DNA of 33,644 nucleotides from NCBI GenBank assembly GCA_013001285.1, contig JABDMU010000083.1, positions 1-33,644 on the forward strand, read 5' to 3'. The position numbers and the translations under genes are program-made. The notes below the pieces were generated by a model. It saw nothing but the letters and a program-made list of their open reading frames with translations, ran no database searches and was not told the DNA's origin. Positions 14,846 to 22,732 of this stretch are shown here, one piece after another (the stretch's first letter is position 1; each line of letters starts with the position of its first letter). The stretch comes from Flavobacteriaceae bacterium. GTDB taxonomy: Bacteria; Bacteroidota; Bacteroidia; Flavobacteriales; Flavobacteriaceae.

Positions 14846-15859
14846 TTAGAAAGAAAAATGTATTCCGAAGGAGGCACTATCAAATTCGGCTAATGTATAA
14901 TCTACATTAAATCCAAAAAATCCCACTTTCAAACGTGCTCCTAAGGTGGTTCTTAGTCCAGAAACTTTTTGTTTAACTGAAAATGGATCTATAATTTCCT
15001 CTGAAAAAATAACCCCGTTCGTCACCCGATACGTTCCTAACAAGTCGGAGTTAGATGTTCCTGTCATGTAGCCTAAGGCTCCATAAAAATTAATGATCTT
15101 GATCTTTGTCGACACAATGAGTTCGGCCAGAAATGTATTGACTTGAGTTTCAACACGCTGTTCTTCGCCGTCAACAAGGCTAGAATCTGTAAAATCATAA
15201 CTTGCATCTAAATGTGTATATGCGACTAAACCAGAAATGGCCACTGGCCAAATTTTTTCAGCCGGAAGAAACCCAGTAAAATTTTGCTGGACACCAATGC
15301 CGTATAATCCAATTTTTGTGTCTTCTGTAGTAATCTTTGGAAAGAATCGACCTTTTATCTCTGTTCCCTTAAAGGGCGCAAAACTTGCTTGTAAAAAAGC
15401 TGTAGGTATTAAATTTACATTGGCTGATCCTATTCCAGTTGGTAAGGTTAGCTCGACTTCCTGATCTCCAAAAATGGGATCATCATATGTGACAATTACG
15501 GTCTGTTCAGGATCATTATGCCCAAGAGCTGTTGCCACTGATTTTGATGGACTATCATCTGGAAATCTCACATTCTCATATTCGGAAACATCCAGGATAA
15601 AAGATTTTTTTTCATCTTTTATAAAACCTATATTTCCCGAAAGACTCAATTCAAATCCAAGTCGATTTAAGGTTTTTCCATGATTAAACCAGCCATTATT
15701 AATTCCATAGGCCACACCATCTGTAGCTGGCATTAAATAATCTGTACTAAATCGTTTGGCATCACTGATACCAGCCGCCAAAAGATCATCAATATTTTCT
15801 TGTGCTTGAGTGAGTCCTATACCAAGTATAGTGCAAAAAAGAAACCACTTCTTTATCAT
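14846..15859 (-). CDS. Outer-membrane DUF6588-type beta-barrel protein
   Basis: The 337-residue protein starts with a signal peptide (about 1-19, ending TQAQ) and then shows many alternating short strands, Gly- and aromatic-rich turns and a C-terminus ending in Phe (FGIHFSF), all typical of an outer-membrane barrel. I assign it to the DUF6588 type by general resemblance; the function is not known. It stands alone between mdh and the TonB receptor gene with its own terminator. A minus-strand TATTTTTG box at 15888-15881 lies about 22 bp before the ATG and may be its promoter. Confidence 0.65.
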   Translation of the reverse strand: MIKKWFLFCTILGIGLTQAQENIDDLLAAGISDAKRFSTDYLMPATDGVAYGINNGWFNHGKTLNRLGFELSLSGNIGFIKDEKKSFILDVSEYENVRFPDDSPSKSVATALGHNDPEQTVIVTYDDPIFGDQEVELTLPTGIGSANVNLIPTAFLQASFAPFKGTEIKGRFFPKITTEDTKIGLYGIGVQQNFTGFLPAEKIWPVAISGLVAYTHLDASYDFTDSSLVDGEEQRVETQVNTFLAELIVSTKIKIINFYGALGYMTGTSNSDLLGTYRVTNGVIFSEEIIDPFSVKQKVSGLRTTLGARLKVGFFGFNVDYTLAEFDSASFGIHFSF

Positions 15860-15949: not shown

Positions 15950-18490
15950 CTAGAAATGTACTCTAAAACTCAAATTCGGCGTTAAGCCCAGTGATTTATT
16001 ATCGATTTGAATAGCATTATCAGAATTATTTGGATCAACCTCAAAATAGCGATTAATACTATTTCGTTGATTCGTTAAATTAATCACACCAGCCCTAAAC
16101 GAGGCATTTACCGAATTGCTAAATTTAAAGGTGTAATGAAGTGAGGCATCCAATCGCATAAATTCATCCAGTCGTTCACGATTTGGTGTGTCATAATTCA
16201 CCACTGTCGTACTTCCATTTTGAATAGTTTCATTACCTTCAACTGGTTTAGTATACGGTTGGCCAGTTCGCCACATACCTCCCAAAGACACTTTTAACTG
16301 TTCCAGAATATTTAAACTTAGTGCCATTGATACTGAATGTTCTATATCAACATTATTAGGAAAAATAGAAGGCGTCAAGGTTTTAAATTCATAGTCATTC
16401 GAACTATTGGTATAGCTTATCCATGCACTATAAGTGTCCGTAGTCTTATTCGCTAAAAACTCGATGCCTTTTACGGTATAACTTCCCGAAGCATTGAGAT
16501 ACTGAAAATTATTATAAAATCCTTGATTAGATACCGTTATACCGTCAACATCCTTATAAAATGCTGTAAGGTTAATGCTCAAATCATTCTGACTAAATTC
16601 TGCGCCAAATGATAATTGCTGACTCGTTGAAATGGGAATATTTTCTTCGTTGGCCAAGATCCATCGTCTGTTCTCCACACCTAAAAAATCGTCCTCAAAA
16701 TCTACAATTTGGGTTGCTGACTGGTTTTTAAACTCACCTGCCAACTCTAAGGCGAGGGCGTTCACTATTTTTTGTCGAATACTAACTCGGGGCTCTATGA
16801 GTAATTTATCGAATTTTTGAAAATAATTCAATCGTGCTCCAAGACGAACAAACGTAAAGTGCTTTGCAAACTCCATTTCGGTATAAACCGCGTGATTACG
16901 AAGCACATCTTTTTTTGTACGTTCATATGAAGGTGCGCTTACCGTGGTTTCATTCAAAATGCCAATTTCACTAAACTCGTAGCCATTTAGCAAAGTTAAA
17001 TGTTTTGAAATGTCATAATAGGTATTCAACTTTGCTCCGGTCTCCAATACTTCATTGGCCTGAGCAAGTATTTGATTTGTTTGCACACGCTCATCAGATG
17101 CATCGACATTGTATTTAGAATAGAACCCGGAAACCTTGGTTCTGAATTTTTTAGACCATTGTGCTGTCCAACTGCCTCCTGCACCAAGATTCTCTTGTGA
17201 TAAATTACTGGATTTAGAAATTGAATCGCCCTCATTTGTTTTATAGGCTTCGCTGTAATCAAGGTTATTAGATATGCTAATGACATTTGCCCGTATTTTA
17301 TGATCAGAGTTTATATCATACAGTAATTTAGCGGTGTAATCATAAAACAAAAATTCAGAATTCGTCATTCCATCTGATAAATTTGGATTGGTTTCTATAT
17401 CACTATCCTGAAAGCTTCGTTCAAAATATTTGTCGTAAGTGGGAGACGTAAATGCATCCGTGAATGAACGACGTCCAGAAATATGAAGTCCTAGATTATG
17501 GCTCAATGGAATTTCAAGAAATGCATCAGCGCTAATTAAATTAAATCCAACACCTCCGGTAAAACTTGTACCAATTTTATCTTTTGTAGACATATTAATT
17601 GTACTTGAAACCCCGTCACTATACTCACTACTTGTGCCATTTTTGGTAACAATGACCTTATTGGTAAGGTTAGGATTATAAGCAGATATCAATCCGAAAA
17701 AATGGCCGGAATGGTACATTTTAATATCATCCCAGAGCATCAAATTTTGATCATTGGTTCCGCCTCTTACATTTATATTGGCAATACTTTCATTGGTGCT
17801 TTCAATTCCAGGTAAGGCTTGTATAGATTGCAGAATATCAGGTTCGGTAAGTCCTGGAAGAATTCCAAATTTTTCGGTGTTCAGAAGGGTACTTCCATCT
17901 TTTAATTTTTGTAAACCTGTGGTCAGAAACTTGGTGATCACCACTTGATTTAAAGCTTGTGCTTCTTCAAGTAAATAAATCGTTTTACAATCGTTGGTAA
18001 CCGTAAAGAAATCTGAAGCAGGAAATGATTCTGATTTAAATCCGATAAACGAGATCACAATTTTCGCATTGACTGGAATATTATTCAATTCAAATTTTCC
18101 ATCAAAACTTGTAATAGCACCTTTGCTCGTTCCAGACACGATGATGTTGGCACCTAGTAAAGGCGCATAATTATTTTCCTTTACAAATCCACAGATAGAA
18201 ATTTCCTTATTGAGAGGAGTTACAGTAATATAGCGCTCATCTAGGATCTCAAAATTAAGTAAGGTATTTTGATTAAGGTATGTAATATATTCACTTAAGG
18301 AGAGTACTTTATCAGGGGATTTAATAAACAAATCCCTAACATCGCTTACAGCATATGAAAATTTAACCTCATGTTGGGCTTCAATTTTCGTCAATAATTC
18401 AATTAGGGGTTCTTTGTTAATGCGTTCCTGCCCTTGAATTAACTGACAAACAAATAGCATTAGTAAAAGTACCCATTTAGTTTCCTTCAT
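15950..18490 (-). CDS. STN-domain TonB-dependent receptor (FecA-like transducer)
   Basis: Outer-membrane receptor that should both import a ligand and signal its presence. I prefer the ATG at 18490, because the signal peptide then starts MKETKWVLLL; an in-frame ATG at 18502 also exists. Numbered from the longer start (850 residues), the domains are: signal peptide to about 25, STN signalling domain (about 28-96, working through FecR in known systems), carboxypeptidase-regulatory-like domain (about 102-178), plug (about 185-310, with ANINVRGGTNDQN) and a barrel ending in LSFRVHF. The start overlaps the fecR end by 14 bp (26 bp with the longer start), so the two are coupled. The ligand cannot be told; the gene is not next to a SusD homologue, and the short barrel differs from SusC proteins. 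Confidence 0.93.
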   Translation of the reverse strand: MKETKWVLLLMLFVCQLIQGQERINKEPLIELLTKIEAQHEVKFSYAVSDVRDLFIKSPDKVLSLSEYITYLNQNTLLNFEILDERYITVTPLNKEISICGFVKENNYAPLLGANIIVSGTSKGAITSFDGKFELNNIPVNAKIVISFIGFKSESFPASDFFTVTNDCKTIYLLEEAQALNQVVITKFLTTGLQKLKDGSTLLNTEKFGILPGLTEPDILQSIQALPGIESTNESIANINVRGGTNDQNLMLWDDIKMYHSGHFFGLISAYNPNLTNKVIVTKNGTSSEYSDGVSSTINMSTKDKIGTSFTGGVGFNLISADAFLEIPLSHNLGLHISGRRSFTDAFTSPTYDKYFERSFQDSDIETNPNLSDGMTNSEFLFYDYTAKLLYDINSDHKIRANVISISNNLDYSEAYKTNEGDSISKSSNLSQENLGAGGSWTAQWSKKFRTKVSGFYSKYNVDASDERVQTNQILAQANEVLETGAKLNTYYDISKHLTLLNGYEFSEIGILNETTVSAPSYERTKKDVLRNHAVYTEMEFAKHFTFVRLGARLNYFQKFDKLLIEPRVSIRQKIVNALALELAGEFKNQSATQIVDFEDDFLGVENRRWILANEENIPISTSQQLSFGAEFSQNDLSINLTAFYKDVDGITVSNQGFYNNFQYLNASGSYTVKGIEFLANKTTDTYSAWISYTNSSNDYEFKTLTPSIFPNNVDIEHSVSMALSLNILEQLKVSLGGMWRTGQPYTKPVEGNETIQNGSTTVVNYDTPNRERLDEFMRLDASLHYTFKFSNSVNASFRAGVINLTNQRNSINRYFEVDPNNSDNAIQIDNKSLGLTPNLSFRVHF

Positions 18491-19382
18491 ACTTATATAC
18501 AATCACGTTTTTACCGTCTATCTTATAACTCAATTGCAACGGAATTGTTATTGATTTTAAAGCTGTATTTTTATTGTTATGAGTAAAACTTCCTGTAAAC
18601 AGTTGATTTTCATCTACTTGTTTCATTTCTATTTTTAGATCGAATTGACGCTCAAATTCGGCAATCACTTCCTTATATGGTACCTCTTTAAAGCTTGATT
18701 CGTCCGATAACCATTCTGGAGCAAGCGTTCCAAAATCTGTAACATCACTTGGCTGACCGTTCACGATTCTAAAGGTTTTACCTTTTGAAAGTTGAAGTTG
18801 TGAACCATTATAAGACACTGCAACTAAACCTTCATAGCAATGCACTTCAAAATAATCATCGCGCTCTTTTACGTTAAACTGCGTTCCTAGAACTTGCACC
18901 TTACCCTGGCTTGTAATAACTGTAAACTTCTGGCCTTTTTCGACTTTAAAATAAGCTTCACCATTCAACTCGAGATCCCTTTGTTCTTTCCAGGACTTTT
19001 TATTGAATGAAATTGAAGAATTGGCATTTAAGGTCACTTCCGATTGATCGGGTAAATTAAAATGAATGGTTTGTGCTATATCGGTTTGGTAGGATTTGGT
19101 GGTATTAAATAATGTGAAATAACCAAGAGCTAAAACGACAATTGCAGCCACTGCCATTTTATAATATCTAGAAACATGCAATCTTCTAACTTTTACTTTT
19201 TCAACCTGAGCAGTACGCGTTTTTATATTCGCTAGAGCCGACTCGACGTCTACTTTAGGAACATCAATATGTGACGCATAATGAGCGATCTTTTCAAAAA
19301 TACGAGCATCTTTATCTGCTCCTAAATCTTCTTGAGATCCTTCGCGGTTAAACCAGTTCAATATGTTTTTTTCGTTTTGCAT
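18477..19382 (-). CDS. FecR-family anti-sigma factor
   Basis: Inner-membrane regulator that holds the ECF sigma factor and receives the signal from the receptor's STN domain. The 301-residue protein has a cytoplasmic N-terminal part (1-73), one TM helix (about 75-92), a periplasmic FecR domain (about 105-195, with GEAYFKVEKG and VLGTQFNV) and a C-terminal DUF4974 (about 230-300), the usual Bacteroidota form. The gene follows the sigma gene after 65 bp, and that gap holds a predicted ECF promoter, so fecR and the receptor can be induced apart from sigma. Confidence 0.94.
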   Translation of the reverse strand: MQNEKNILNWFNREGSQEDLGADKDARIFEKIAHYASHIDVPKVDVESALANIKTRTAQVEKVKVRRLHVSRYYKMAVAAIVVLALGYFTLFNTTKSYQTDIAQTIHFNLPDQSEVTLNANSSISFNKKSWKEQRDLELNGEAYFKVEKGQKFTVITSQGKVQVLGTQFNVKERDDYFEVHCYEGLVAVSYNGSQLQLSKGKTFRIVNGQPSDVTDFGTLAPEWLSDESSFKEVPYKEVIAEFERQFDLKIEMKQVDENQLFTGSFTHNNKNTALKSITIPLQLSYKIDGKNVIVYKYEGN

Positions 19383-19401: not shown

Positions 19402-19431
19402 TAAGACACTTATATTTATCTATACCCTACC
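19402..19431 (-). promoter_or_regulatory. Predicted ECF promoter before fecR
   Basis: Minus strand: GGTAGGGTA (19431-19423), 12 bp, AGTGTCTTA (19410-19402). Both boxes and the spacing are identical to the motif at 20078-20107 before the divergent lipoprotein gene; the spacers differ. The fecR ATG at 19382 is 19 bp past the second box, so the leader would be very short. Confidence 0.75.
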
Positions 19432-19447
19432 TTTTTATTAAAAATAA

Positions 19448-19963
19448 TTAAATATTATCAAATTTTGCTCTTAACAATTTTAACGCAGCAGACATGTGTT
19501 TTTCAACTGTTTTTTGTGATACATCTAATTCATCTGCAATCTCGCGATACTTTTTACCTTCAATTCTATTCAATAAAAACACCTCGCGTTGGGAAGGCGT
19601 CAAGTCTTCAATAGCCTCTAACAGTTTCGCCTTAAATTCATCCTCTTCAAGTAAAAATTCTGGATTTTGATTATCTCTATCTATATATGGTGTCTCTTTT
19701 GCATAATTCAGAACCACCTTTTGATGTCTAACTGAATTAAGGAACATATGATTAACTGTGGTCCATAAATAAGATTTTGCCTTAGAAAAATCAACTTTCG
19801 CGCAATTTTCCCAAAGCTTTACGAAGGCTTCCTGAACTAGGTCAAGTGCTTCGGCTTGATTTCCACATTTGTAAAAGGCAAAATTACTTGCTGCCTGCAC
19901 ATGTGTTGTATAAAATTCATTGAATGTAGGTTCTTTACAAAGATTTCCTTTAGGGGTTTCCAT
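19448..19963 (-). CDS. ECF sigma factor, FecI-like
   Basis: RNA polymerase sigma factor of the extracytoplasmic-function class. The 171-residue protein has region 2 (about 20-90, with DLVQEAFVKLWEN) and region 4 (about 112-168, with LTPSQREVFLLNRIEG and a helix-turn-helix around YREIADELDVSQKTVEKHM), and lacks regions 1 and 3. Its neighbour is a FecR anti-sigma gene. The ECF motif found before fecR and the lipoprotein operon is not seen before this gene; instead a TATTTTTG box (20003-19996, minus strand) suggests constant expression from the housekeeping sigma factor. Confidence 0.94.
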   Translation of the reverse strand: METPKGNLCKEPTFNEFYTTHVQAASNFAFYKCGNQAEALDLVQEAFVKLWENCAKVDFSKAKSYLWTTVNHMFLNSVRHQKVVLNYAKETPYIDRDNQNPEFLLEEDEFKAKLLEAIEDLTPSQREVFLLNRIEGKKYREIADELDVSQKTVEKHMSAALKLLRAKFDNI

Positions 19964-20172
19964 TTAATGCTATTAATTATTGGAACTTATGGGTACAAAA
20001 ATAAGATAAATTTGATTAATTATAAATTATTGATTTTTAATTACTTATGCTGAAATACCTAATTTTTTTTGTTTTTTGGTAGGGTACTTTCTTTTTTGAG
20101 TGTCTTACTTATAGAAAGCGAAATTAGATCGCTGTGAAAATTAAAAATCATTTAACCCAAAAAAACGAAATC
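19964..20172. promoter_or_regulatory. Divergent control region of the ECF locus
   Basis: This AT-rich gap of about 209 bp lies between the sigma gene and the lipoprotein operon. It holds a housekeeping-type -7 box for sigma on the minus strand and the ECF-type promoter for the plus-strand operon. No other gene was seen. Confidence 0.6.
20078..20107 (+). promoter_or_regulatory. Predicted ECF promoter before lipoprotein operon
   Basis: GGTAGGGTA (20078-20086), 12 bp, AGTGTCTTA (20099-20107), the twin of the site before fecR. The ATG I favour for the lipoprotein is at 20173, giving a leader of roughly 60 bases. Confidence 0.75.
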
Positions 20173-21225
20173 ATGAAAAATTTAAAATTAATGTCCGTAA
20201 TTATGTTAGGTCTTTTATTTGGACTTACATCATGTCAAGATGAAATTGACAATGAAAATGGAAATAACCCAAACACAAACTCAGCCGATTCGGTTACTGC
20301 AAGTAACTTAGAACGATCAGCCAAACATGATGGTTCTTTCGATGACTTTTTAGATGGAATTTCTTGTTCTTCTATCTTATTACCAGTTACCGCAACTGTG
20401 AATGGAAGTCAAGTTTCAGTTGTTTCAGAATCAGATTATCAACAAGTCCTGGATATTTTAGGTCAGTTCAATACTGATGACGATCAAGTCGTATTACAAT
20501 TTCCACTTACAGTGAAATTAAGTAATTATACCGAAGTGGTCGTTACAAATCAGATGGAATACGATGCTTTAATTGATGCTTGTAATCAAGCCGAATCAGC
20601 AGGTCAAGATGCAATTGCTTGTTTAGATATTAATTTCCCGATCACCATTTTAACCTACAGTTTGAATTTTGATCAGACCGGAAGTGTGGTTATCGAATCT
20701 GAACAACAACTGTACAACTTCATGAACAACTTTAGTGATGATGAATTGTTCTCAGTTGACTATCCGATTACTGCTATTATAAATGGAGATTCTAATGTGA
20801 CGCTTTCAAGCGATATCGATCTTATGTCACGGATTAACGAATGTTTAGCTACTGAAGATGCTATGGATGAAGCTGAAGAAAGTGCAGACACATTAGAAAC
20901 AATTCTTGTTGATGGCTTATTTCAAGTTGAATCATTTGTAAATTCAGGAATAGACACTGCAAATGACTATGCTGAATATACCGTAGATTTTGCTAATGAT
21001 CTTACAGTTACAGCTGTAAACACGGTAGATATGGCCGCCCAAGATGTTCAAGGTACCTATGAGGTAACTTCAGAAATTGACGTCTATTTATCATTGAATT
21101 TTACAGGAAATGCTTCCTTCGAATTGCTTAACCAAACTTGGGAAGTTACAAGTTATTCCGAAAATAGCATATCATTACAAAGTACAGTAAATGCTTCAGT
21201 AACACTGATATTGTCTCAAATCTAA
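20173..21225 (+). CDS. Lipoprotein with four internal repeats, unknown function
   Basis: I start it at the ATG at 20173 (350 residues), since this gives a clean lipoprotein signal (MKNLKLMSVIMLGLL, lipobox LTSC, Cys21); an in-frame GTG at 20134 would add 13 unlikely residues. The mature part begins with a low-complexity Asn/Asp stretch. Then four repeats of about 42 residues follow, each opening LPVT, FPLT, FPIT or YPIT, with two strands, a short S/T-E-x-x-Y/L helix and often a closing Cys. An acidic helix (DAMDEAEESADTLE) and a strand-rich C-terminal domain complete it. Surface exposure is likely. It heads the operon under the ECF motif, so it is probably a main output of the sigma factor. 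No enzyme motif is seen; ligand binding or adhesion is a guess. Confidence 0.8.
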   Translation: MKNLKLMSVIMLGLLFGLTSCQDEIDNENGNNPNTNSADSVTASNLERSAKHDGSFDDFLDGISCSSILLPVTATVNGSQVSVVSESDYQQVLDILGQFNTDDDQVVLQFPLTVKLSNYTEVVVTNQMEYDALIDACNQAESAGQDAIACLDINFPITILTYSLNFDQTGSVVIESEQQLYNFMNNFSDDELFSVDYPITAIINGDSNVTLSSDIDLMSRINECLATEDAMDEAEESADTLETILVDGLFQVESFVNSGIDTANDYAEYTVDFANDLTVTAVNTVDMAAQDVQGTYEVTSEIDVYLSLNFTGNASFELLNQTWEVTSYSENSISLQSTVNASVTLILSQI

Positions 21226-21314: not shown

Positions 21315-22112
21315 ATGAAAAAGATAACTTATTTTTTAATTTGTGTTTTAAGTCTGAGTTTGAGTTGCACTAAGGAAGATGTTTCTTCTAATGACAACTC
21401 TTCTGGTAACGGAAATGGAAATGGTAGCATTGACACTTCGGCTAATCAACAAGCCACAGGAACCTCGGCCAACGCGCTTTTGTCGGATACTGAGTTTAAT
21501 CAACTGATAATTGAACTGGCTTATGTAGAAGGCTTTTCGCCATCAAATACGGCAGTCGATAATCTCATTGCGTTTTTAACTGAAAGAACATTTAAACCAA
21601 ATGGCATTTCCGTAGTTACTCAAGTAATTCCTTCACAGGAAAATATAGAATTAACCGTCAATGATATTATAGCAATTGAAGATAACTACAGAACACAGTA
21701 TAATTCTGAAGGTACAATAGCTGTCTGGGCCTTTTTTACGAATGGAAGTTCAGCAAACAATACTGAAAATGGTGTTGTTCTAGGTACCGCTTATAGAAAC
21801 ACCTCATTCGTTATTTTTGAAGAAACCATTCATGGCTTGAGTGACGGTACCTTTGAACCCAACAGATCGGTTTTAGAATCGACTGTCATATTACATGAAA
21901 TAGGTCATTTACTGGGCTTAACCAACCTAGGCACCGCCTTGCAAAGTGACCATGAAGATCAGGATCATCCTAAACATTGTAATGTCGAAACTTGTTTGAT
22001 GTATTTTTCGGCTGAAACAGGATCTGGAATCGAAAACTTGATTGGGGCGAATTCGGCACCTGAGCTAGATGCTCAATGTATTGCCGATTTACAAGCCAAT
22101 GGCGGAAAATAA
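21315..22112 (+). CDS. Lipoprotein zinc metalloprotease, metzincin-like
   Basis: Predicted surface or periplasmic peptidase of 265 residues. A signal with lipobox SLSC (Cys18) is followed by a Ser/Gly/Asn-rich linker (about 24-55). The catalytic site HEIGHLLGL (194-202) supplies zinc ligands His194 and His198 and catalytic Glu195; a third ligand may be His213, His218 or His221 in the His/Asp-rich stretch. CNVETCLMYF (222-231) gives a C-x4-C-x-M pattern that recalls archaemetzincins and acts as Met-turn. Such proteins are often called membrane metalloproteases in flavobacteria. It lies between the repeat lipoprotein and the barrel gene in the ECF-controlled operon; its substrate is unknown. 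Confidence 0.85.
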   Translation: MKKITYFLICVLSLSLSCTKEDVSSNDNSSGNGNGNGSIDTSANQQATGTSANALLSDTEFNQLIIELAYVEGFSPSNTAVDNLIAFLTERTFKPNGISVVTQVIPSQENIELTVNDIIAIEDNYRTQYNSEGTIAVWAFFTNGSSANNTENGVVLGTAYRNTSFVIFEETIHGLSDGTFEPNRSVLESTVILHEIGHLLGLTNLGTALQSDHEDQDHPKHCNVETCLMYFSAETGSGIENLIGANSAPELDAQCIADLQANGGK

Positions 22113-22141: not shown

Positions 22142-22732
22142 ATGAAAAAAACAATTTTAACAATCGTAATAGGTCTGACATTAATCCTGTCTTCTATTGC
22201 ACAGGAATCTACCGATCGCAGTAGTACTGCAGGTCTTAAAGGTGGCTATAATTTGGCTGCTGTAAGTTATGATGACGACAGCGAAACCGGTCAGCGACAC
22301 GGGTTTCATATTGGATTTTATGGCGAATCTTTTTTAAGCAAAGCTGTTGCACTTCAATTAGAAGTTAATTATTCGCAACAAGGTTATGAACTTAAAGATG
22401 GTGGCGGCACATTCACTCAAAAATTGAATTATATCAATTTACCGGTGATGCTTAAAATTTATCTCGACACCAACTTCTTTTTGGAAGTAGGTCCTCAAGT
22501 GGGACTGGCTATTTCACATAAGGAAGAATTTGATAGCAACTTTAATCTCTTTGATACGTCACAGGAATTTGATCCACAAAATTTTGATTGGGGTGTAAAT
22601 TTTGGGGGAGGATTCAAAACTGACACCGGTGTCACAATTGGTGTCCGATATCATTCAGGGATGGGTGACATTTATGATGAAGGAAATCCGAAGAATCGCG
22701 TGTGGCAATTCTCAATTGGATTTGATCTTTAA
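22142..22732 (+). CDS. Small outer-membrane beta-barrel (porin-family) protein
   Basis: I start it at the ATG at 22142 (196 residues), where a proper signal peptide begins (MKKTILTIVIGLTLILSS, cut near AQ); an upstream in-frame ATG at 22076 lies inside the protease gene. The mature chain has about eight amphipathic strands with GLKGGYNLA, LEVNYSQQGYEL, INLPVMLKIY and FLEVGPQVGLA, typical of the 8-stranded barrels of Bacteroidota (PorT/OMP_b-brl_2 type), and ends FSIGFDL. It is last in the operon, 29 bp after the protease, and is followed by a terminator. Role unknown. Confidence 0.85.
   Translation: MKKTILTIVIGLTLILSSIAQESTDRSSTAGLKGGYNLAAVSYDDDSETGQRHGFHIGFYGESFLSKAVALQLEVNYSQQGYELKDGGGTFTQKLNYINLPVMLKIYLDTNFFLEVGPQVGLAISHKEEFDSNFNLFDTSQEFDPQNFDWGVNFGGGFKTDTGVTIGVRYHSGMGDIYDEGNPKNRVWQFSIGFDL

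Follow-up and report, generated by a model that had tools for sequence, protein, structure and literature searches.

The window, that is, the whole stretch of 33,644 nucleotides from a Flavobacteriaceae genome that was analysed here, carries a gene for an ECF sigma factor, which is followed by genes for a FecR-like anti-sigma factor and a TonB-dependent receptor and is flanked on its other side by divergent genes for a lipoprotein, a zinc protease and an outer-membrane barrel. On each side of the sigma gene lies a promoter-like site composed of a -35-type element GGTAGGGTA, 12 bp and a -10-type element AGTGTCTTA. The features are as follows.

15950-18490, minus strand: TonB-dependent receptor gene, with plug and carboxypeptidase-like domains (Pfam), overlapping the end of fecR; its start codon is our choice
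18477-19382, minus strand: FecR-like anti-sigma factor gene (fecR), 301 aa, PF04773 and PF16344 above cut-off
19402-19431, minus strand: promoter-like site 1, between the stop of the sigma gene (19448) and the start of fecR (19382)
19448-19963, minus strand: ECF sigma factor gene, 171 aa, TIGR02985 Sig70_bacteroi1 at 128.8 bits (cut-off 126.4), PF04542 and PF08281 above cut-off
19996-20003, minus strand: candidate -7 box TAnnTTTG (TATTTTTG) of the housekeeping sigma-A, 32 bases before the sigma ATG, assigned from the -7 box alone
20078-20107, plus strand: promoter-like site 2, GGTAGGGTA-N12-AGTGTCTTA, facing the divergent lipoprotein operon
20173-21225, plus strand: lipoprotein gene, 350 aa, downstream of site 2
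21315-22112, plus strand: metzincin-like zinc protease gene, 265 aa, a lipoprotein with HEIGHLLGLTN (HExxHxxGLxN) and CLM
22142-22732, plus strand: outer-membrane beta-barrel gene, 196 aa from the chosen ATG, PF13568 and PF13505

The sequence-only reading had described two 30-base sites in these places and on these strands, and had stated that the sigma gene itself lacks the motif; both sites were recovered exactly, no copy points at the sigma gene, and the earlier calls of the sigma factor, FecR and the outer-membrane barrel agree with Pfam. The two exact sites compare with an expectation of 0.00 from 100 dinucleotide shuffles, and the window holds no further site even when up to 3 mismatches are allowed.

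The product of the lipoprotein gene has no Pfam or NCBIfam match, and its structural model (mean pLDDT 86) consists of four beta/alpha repeats, a long helix and a C-terminal barrel. No Foldseek match of the model reaches E 0.001; the top one is a weak match to ToxR/ToxS (0.0027), followed by weak matches of the C-terminal barrel to small, lipocalin-like proteins of Bacteroides (from 0.0035) and to potempin E (from 0.0084). Potempins are protease inhibitors, and it is only a guess that the lipoprotein might inhibit the neighbouring metzincin-like protease. The model of the latter (mean pLDDT 72) is best matched by archaemetzincin 2x7m (E 2.4e-5) and then by profragilysin (E 9.4e-4), and the protein misses the cut-off of the NCBIfam archaemetzincin family NF033823 by far (21.3 vs 145 bits). 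Among 80 named loci, the best 80 of 552 relatives, the protease gene lies beside the lipoprotein gene in 20 and the barrel gene in 14, and other loci have the lipoprotein gene without these two.

On the other side, the receptor N-terminus is weakly like FecR_C (E 0.08, and 0.00019 for the paralogue, both below cut-off) and has no STN match. A 337-aa protein with no NCBIfam match is encoded at 14846-15859, 90 bp past the receptor gene and possibly on the same transcript. Among the locus proteins scanned with Pfam and NCBIfam there is neither a SusD-like partner nor a glycan enzyme.

Placement and spacing of the sites in related loci

The arrangement recurs in loci that were chosen by their sigma factor. 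A first sigma search gave 30 loci (of 45 matches, 60 relatives), including the window and a paralogous locus on contig C49 of the same genome; with at most one mismatch, the core GTAGG-N17-TGTYWTA occurs in the sigma-fecR gap of 19, on the divergent side of 23 and in both places of 18, and in none does it point toward the sigma gene or stand reversed in the gap. A second set was drawn from separate named genomes, as the best 80 of 552 relatives by sigma factor, of which 5 with reused sigma sequences were dropped to leave 75. In these 75 loci (best 80 of 552) the core at up to one mismatch is found in the gap of 73, on the divergent side of 69 and in both of 67, while it is directed toward the sigma gene in 0/75 and reversed in the gap in 0/75. 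With exact cores only, the same loci of the best 80 of 552 give 49, 38 and 30, again with none toward the sigma gene and none reversed. Throughout the set (best 80 of 552) fecR follows the sigma gene (75/75, once 1.7 kb away), and a lipoprotein-family gene is divergent in 63/75. Moreover, the spacing is rigid: a spacer of N17 gives the 73 and 69 loci, and any other spacer from N12 to N23 at most 11 (best 80 of 552). Many loci of this set are from Flavobacterium and the loci are related, so these counts are not independent events.

Starting from the motif rather than from the sigma factor, we scanned 249 Flavobacteriaceae genomes for exact GTAGGGTA-N13-KTGTYTTA and examined the stretches around every site. 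The motif occurs at 112 places in 67 of the 249 genomes, against 5 for the reversed control, so that about 5 of the 112 are expected by chance. The lipoprotein family is faced by 42 of the sites and fecR, from the sigma-fecR gap, by 21; one faces a small gene of the C49 locus (orf91, see below), 37 face other ORFs, and for 11 there is no ORF of 200 bases or more within reach. The gene starts faced by sites are mostly within about 70 bp. None of the 112 directly faces a sigma gene, although in two cases one lies farther downstream, at 678 and 696 bp, with another gene in between. A sigma factor of this group (E 1e-40 or better) is present in all 67 motif genomes, compared with 177 of the 249 overall (Fisher 1.1e-12, relatedness uncorrected), and often there are one to four of them per family genome. 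Two numbers count against the promoter reading given below: 48 of the 112 sites have neither fecR nor a lipoprotein-family gene in front of them, and 67 of the 177 sigma-bearing genomes have the exact strict motif.

The sequence-only reading needs an amendment here, as other genomes have more sites and 37 of 112 precede other ORFs. By a crude rule, 29 of these 37 ORFs have a signal-like start, against 105 of 374 background ORFs, and 13 of the 37 belong to one histidine-rich family of about 150 aa. Members of this family (for example L107:6753-7217, L098:8502-8957 and L188:3363-3818) combine a signal-like start with a stretch rich in histidine and cysteine, and often lie downstream of the lipoprotein operon with a site of their own; a search that had no positive control did not find the family in the genome of the window. 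In three other loci (L191:3495-5781, L119 and L146) there are two tandem lipoprotein-family genes, each with its own promoter site.

As for the sigma gene itself, it often has a housekeeping -7 box in place of the ECF-type motif, as far as the box can be taken as a sign of such a promoter. TAnnTTTG is described as the -7 box of the primary sigma factor of this phylum in passages of PMC7366714 and PMC9723704. Within 120 nt before the sigma gene and pointing at it, the box is found in 40 of 73 loci, against 3 in the antisense direction and a shuffle mean of 6.7 (maximum 15); in the second set (best 80 of 552) the bias is weaker, 34/75 vs 14/75 antisense. The proportion of loci with the box is therefore from under half to just over half.

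Paralogous systems and the base at the -10 element

The own assembly (88 contigs, 99.7% complete) was searched as a whole for GGTAGGGTA-N12-AGTGTCTTA with up to 3 mismatches, which gave 4 places vs 3 for the reversed control: the 2 exact sites of the window, one with 1 mismatch on contig C49, and one with 3 mismatches on C75 that lies inside an unrelated ORF and was taken as chance. A looser form, AGGGTA-N13-17-GTCTTA, added one place, on C28, with a different spacing. The exact core GTAGG-N17-TGTYWTA occurs at 5 places, 2 in the window and 3 on C49, against 1 for the reversed control, and all 5 fall in two paralogous loci. The small regulon anticipated by the sequence-only reading is matched by a tiny set of sites, 3 of the window type and 5 with the related type included, except that the third window-type site lies outside the window, in the paralogous locus. 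The features of the latter are the following.

C49, 7257-7772: paralogous sigma gene, with fecR, a receptor gene and a PagL-like gene; divergent from these, orf91 and a gene for an 803-aa lipoprotein
L005:6903-7178 (on C49): orf91, 91 aa, without Pfam match, between the sigma and lipoprotein genes and preceded by a window-type site

In this locus the sigma-fecR gap and the lipoprotein gene have a second promoter type, GGTAGGAGTTTT..TGTTTTA, and the third site, of the window type, faces orf91. Only 2 of the 249 genomes have orf91 at E 0.001 or better, namely the own genome and G243, where the homologue (L269:1501-1773) is 55% identical and has the same position in its locus. There, GGTAGGGAAAATT..TGTCTTA precedes the orf91 homologue, and GGTAGGAGTTTT-type sites are found in the sigma-fecR gap (with 1 mismatch) and before the next lipoprotein gene. 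Since G243 repeats the mixture seen on C49, a promoter with the -10 type of the window has been kept inside the locus of another system. The conservation of the orf91 promoter suggests a cross-wiring of the two systems, two genomes being thin evidence for it. In the own genome, besides the systems of the window and C49, a third sigma-fecR-receptor system lies at a contig end (L181:358-4206, on C54), and its gap has a looser site with 2 mismatches.

If each locus has its own reader, the two promoters of a locus are expected to vary together. In the first set, 46 of 49 loci indeed have the same -10 base, the one that distinguishes TGTC from TGTT, at both of their promoters; shuffles give a mean of 26.0 and 0 of 5000 are as high. 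The exceptions are the orf91 site of C49 (L005), L140 and L116, the last of which has an equally good second site that does match. In the second set (best 80 of 552) 66 of 67 loci show this agreement (shuffle mean 38.5), with L208 as the exception. As for the base that follows GTAGG, 45 of 49 first-set loci have the same one at both promoters (shuffle mean 35.1), and in the second set (best 80 of 552) it is invariant; the W of TGTYWTA, at 30/49 vs a shuffle mean of 28.4, does not agree within loci beyond shuffles. The base composition of the genome is not the cause of the agreement, because paralogues of one genome differ while each is internally consistent: C/C in L067 and T/T in L091 of G023, C/C in L177 and T/T in L081 of G028.

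Among the columns of the sigma factor, residue 58 holds the most information on the -10 base, and other columns come near to it. Of 18 TGTC loci in the first set, 16 have D or E at this residue, and of 42 TGTT loci one has D; in the second set (best 80 of 552) all 21 TGTC loci have D, as does one of the 54 TGTT loci. Both D-bearing TGTT rows (L140 and L208), which were labelled by their gap site, have a TGTC divergent promoter. The region of residue 58 is presumably the loop by which ECF sigma factors read the -10 base. On the sigma tree, just 3 changes are enough to explain the TGTC/TGTT label, and D/E is missing at this position from the second TGTC lineage (L145, L177), so that the tracking of the -10 base by residue 58 is suggestive and not proven. 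Such natural pairs of a sigma residue and a -10 base could be useful for understanding how ECF sigma factors choose their promoters.

Taken one step further, the two systems may be separated by a promoter code, with GGTAGGGTA vs GGTAGGAGTTTT at -35 and TGTC vs TGTT at -10, the latter tracking residue 58, and orf91, driven by the sigma factor of the window, may be a deliberate link from the first system to the second. We rate this reading at a little under an even chance.

Proposed circuit and competing explanations

We consider it very probable that both sites are promoters of the ECF sigma factor whose gene they flank and that this sigma factor stays outside its own regulon. Given the conserved twin placement and the lack of any site facing the sigma gene, its predicted targets are the anti-sigma factor, the receptor and the divergent secreted operon, and do not include the sigma gene itself. 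This is what the sequence-only reading had proposed, and at the level of sequence the proposal is supported both by the placement in the relatives (73/75 in the gap, 69/75 divergent and 0/75 toward the sigma gene, best 80 of 552) and by the joint variation of the -10 base together with the presence of the sigma factor in every motif genome. The sites, with their placement, orientation, rigid spacing, conservation, covariation and rarity in the genome, are seen in the sequence; that they act as promoters, are read by this sigma factor and give one transcript on each side is inferred.

In such a circuit, the sigma gene would be transcribed by the housekeeping polymerase and its product held by the FecR-like anti-sigma factor. 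By analogy with FecI/FecR/FecA systems, an outer signal would be passed via the TonB-dependent receptor to FecR, upon which the sigma factor would be freed. The freed sigma factor would transcribe fecR and the receptor gene, and so raise the amounts of its inhibitor and its sensor, and would also transcribe the divergent operon of the lipoprotein, the metzincin-like protease and the outer-membrane barrel. The extra FecR may serve as a brake that ends the response once the signal stops. The main conserved output of the group would be the uncharacterised lipoprotein family.

Several other explanations deserve attention. The paralogous sigma factor of C49 might also, or instead, read the promoters of the window, which we find unlikely; in its "also" form this is compatible with our main explanation, and the odds of the two overlap. 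The two sigma factors share 48-49% identity and the promoters of both loci have GGTAGG and TGT-TTA in common, but those that C49 has in its own gap and before its lipoprotein gene are of the GGTAGGAGTTTT type, and the agreement of the base after GTAGG within loci, above the shuffle mean, also speaks for separate readers. Very unlikely, in our opinion, is the possibility that the sites are bound by another regulator, an activator or a repressor, flanking the sigma-fecR loci. It would account for the sites that occur away from sigma genes; however, two unlike elements at one fixed spacing, mostly so close to a gene start, are not what it predicts, nor is a -10 base that varies with the sigma factor of the locus, even between paralogues within a genome.

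The outward orientation of the sites around the sigma gene also resembles that of inverted repeats, as if they were the ends of a mobile cassette carrying this gene, and in one locus of G023 (L091) the sites at 1404-1432 and 2006-2034 are identical over 30 bases, spacer included. Nevertheless, in other loci the spacers differ and the elements are constant, single sites precede other genes, and fecR, the receptor and the lipoprotein, all outside the pair, accompany it in most loci, which leaves this explanation scarcely credible. We give equally little credence to an action of the motif as RNA, in a hairpin or leader element: the RNA of site 2 can form a hairpin of 12 pairs, but the folding is no better than that of shuffles (z -0.79, -0.60) and site 1 is without that hairpin.

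Comparison with known systems

In titles and abstract openings, with most subscription papers outside the scope of the search, we found neither this motif nor the twin arrangement, of which a prior description is possible, nor any description of the targets of this sigma group; the pattern predicts such targets from sequence. Among Bacteroidota, the promoters of F. psychrophilum SM6 and of B. thetaiotaomicron PM2/SigW-1 have, like those here, CGT or TGTT near -10 (passages of PMC9723704, PMC7366714 and PMC12596196). The comparison covers the -10 region; GTAGG is absent from the main text of PMC9723704, and the targets given in these papers, namely T9SS, oxidative stress and sulfatases, differ from those of the window. 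The ECF sigma/anti-sigma pairs of Bacteroides PULs, such as BT1877/BT1876, also lie beside a TonB-linked transporter according to the relevant part of PMC11501099; unlike these, the locus of the window shows no SusD-like partner or glycan enzyme among its scanned proteins.

With FecI/FecR/FecA of E. coli, as outlined in the review PMC9249621, the locus shares an ECF sigma factor, a FecR-type anti-sigma factor, a TonB-dependent receptor and a sigma gene that is not autoregulated. There, however, fecIR is described as one unit under sigma-70 and Fur, whereas fecR of the window has a putative sigma-type promoter of its own. An anti-sigma gene without the promoter of its sigma factor, as in the E. 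coli fec system, is thus not what is found here, where the gap site is present in the window and in 73 of 75 relatives (best 80 of 552).

The closest likeness is to the HasI/HasS/HasR system of Serratia marcescens. According to the sections on Has in PMC9249621, the genes are in the order sigma, anti-sigma, receptor, and HasI drives the genes of its anti-sigma factor and receptor and not its own; the brake logic at the end of the signal is likewise given for HasI and hasS. The wiring predicted here is the same, with a sigma-type site before the anti-sigma gene and none before the sigma gene. The elements differ, the likely HasI element being TTTACGGGTTT in the part of the review concerned, against GGTAGGGTA/AGTGTCTTA here, and the window adds a divergent lipoprotein-protease-barrel operon. 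Moreover, the same sections present HasS as the exception: other sigma factors for iron uptake are said to activate neither the sigma gene nor the anti-sigma gene. What the review regards as exceptional appears here to be common within a family. Putative sigma-type control of the anti-sigma gene recurs among the loci examined, and the Has-like wiring appears to be their common form.
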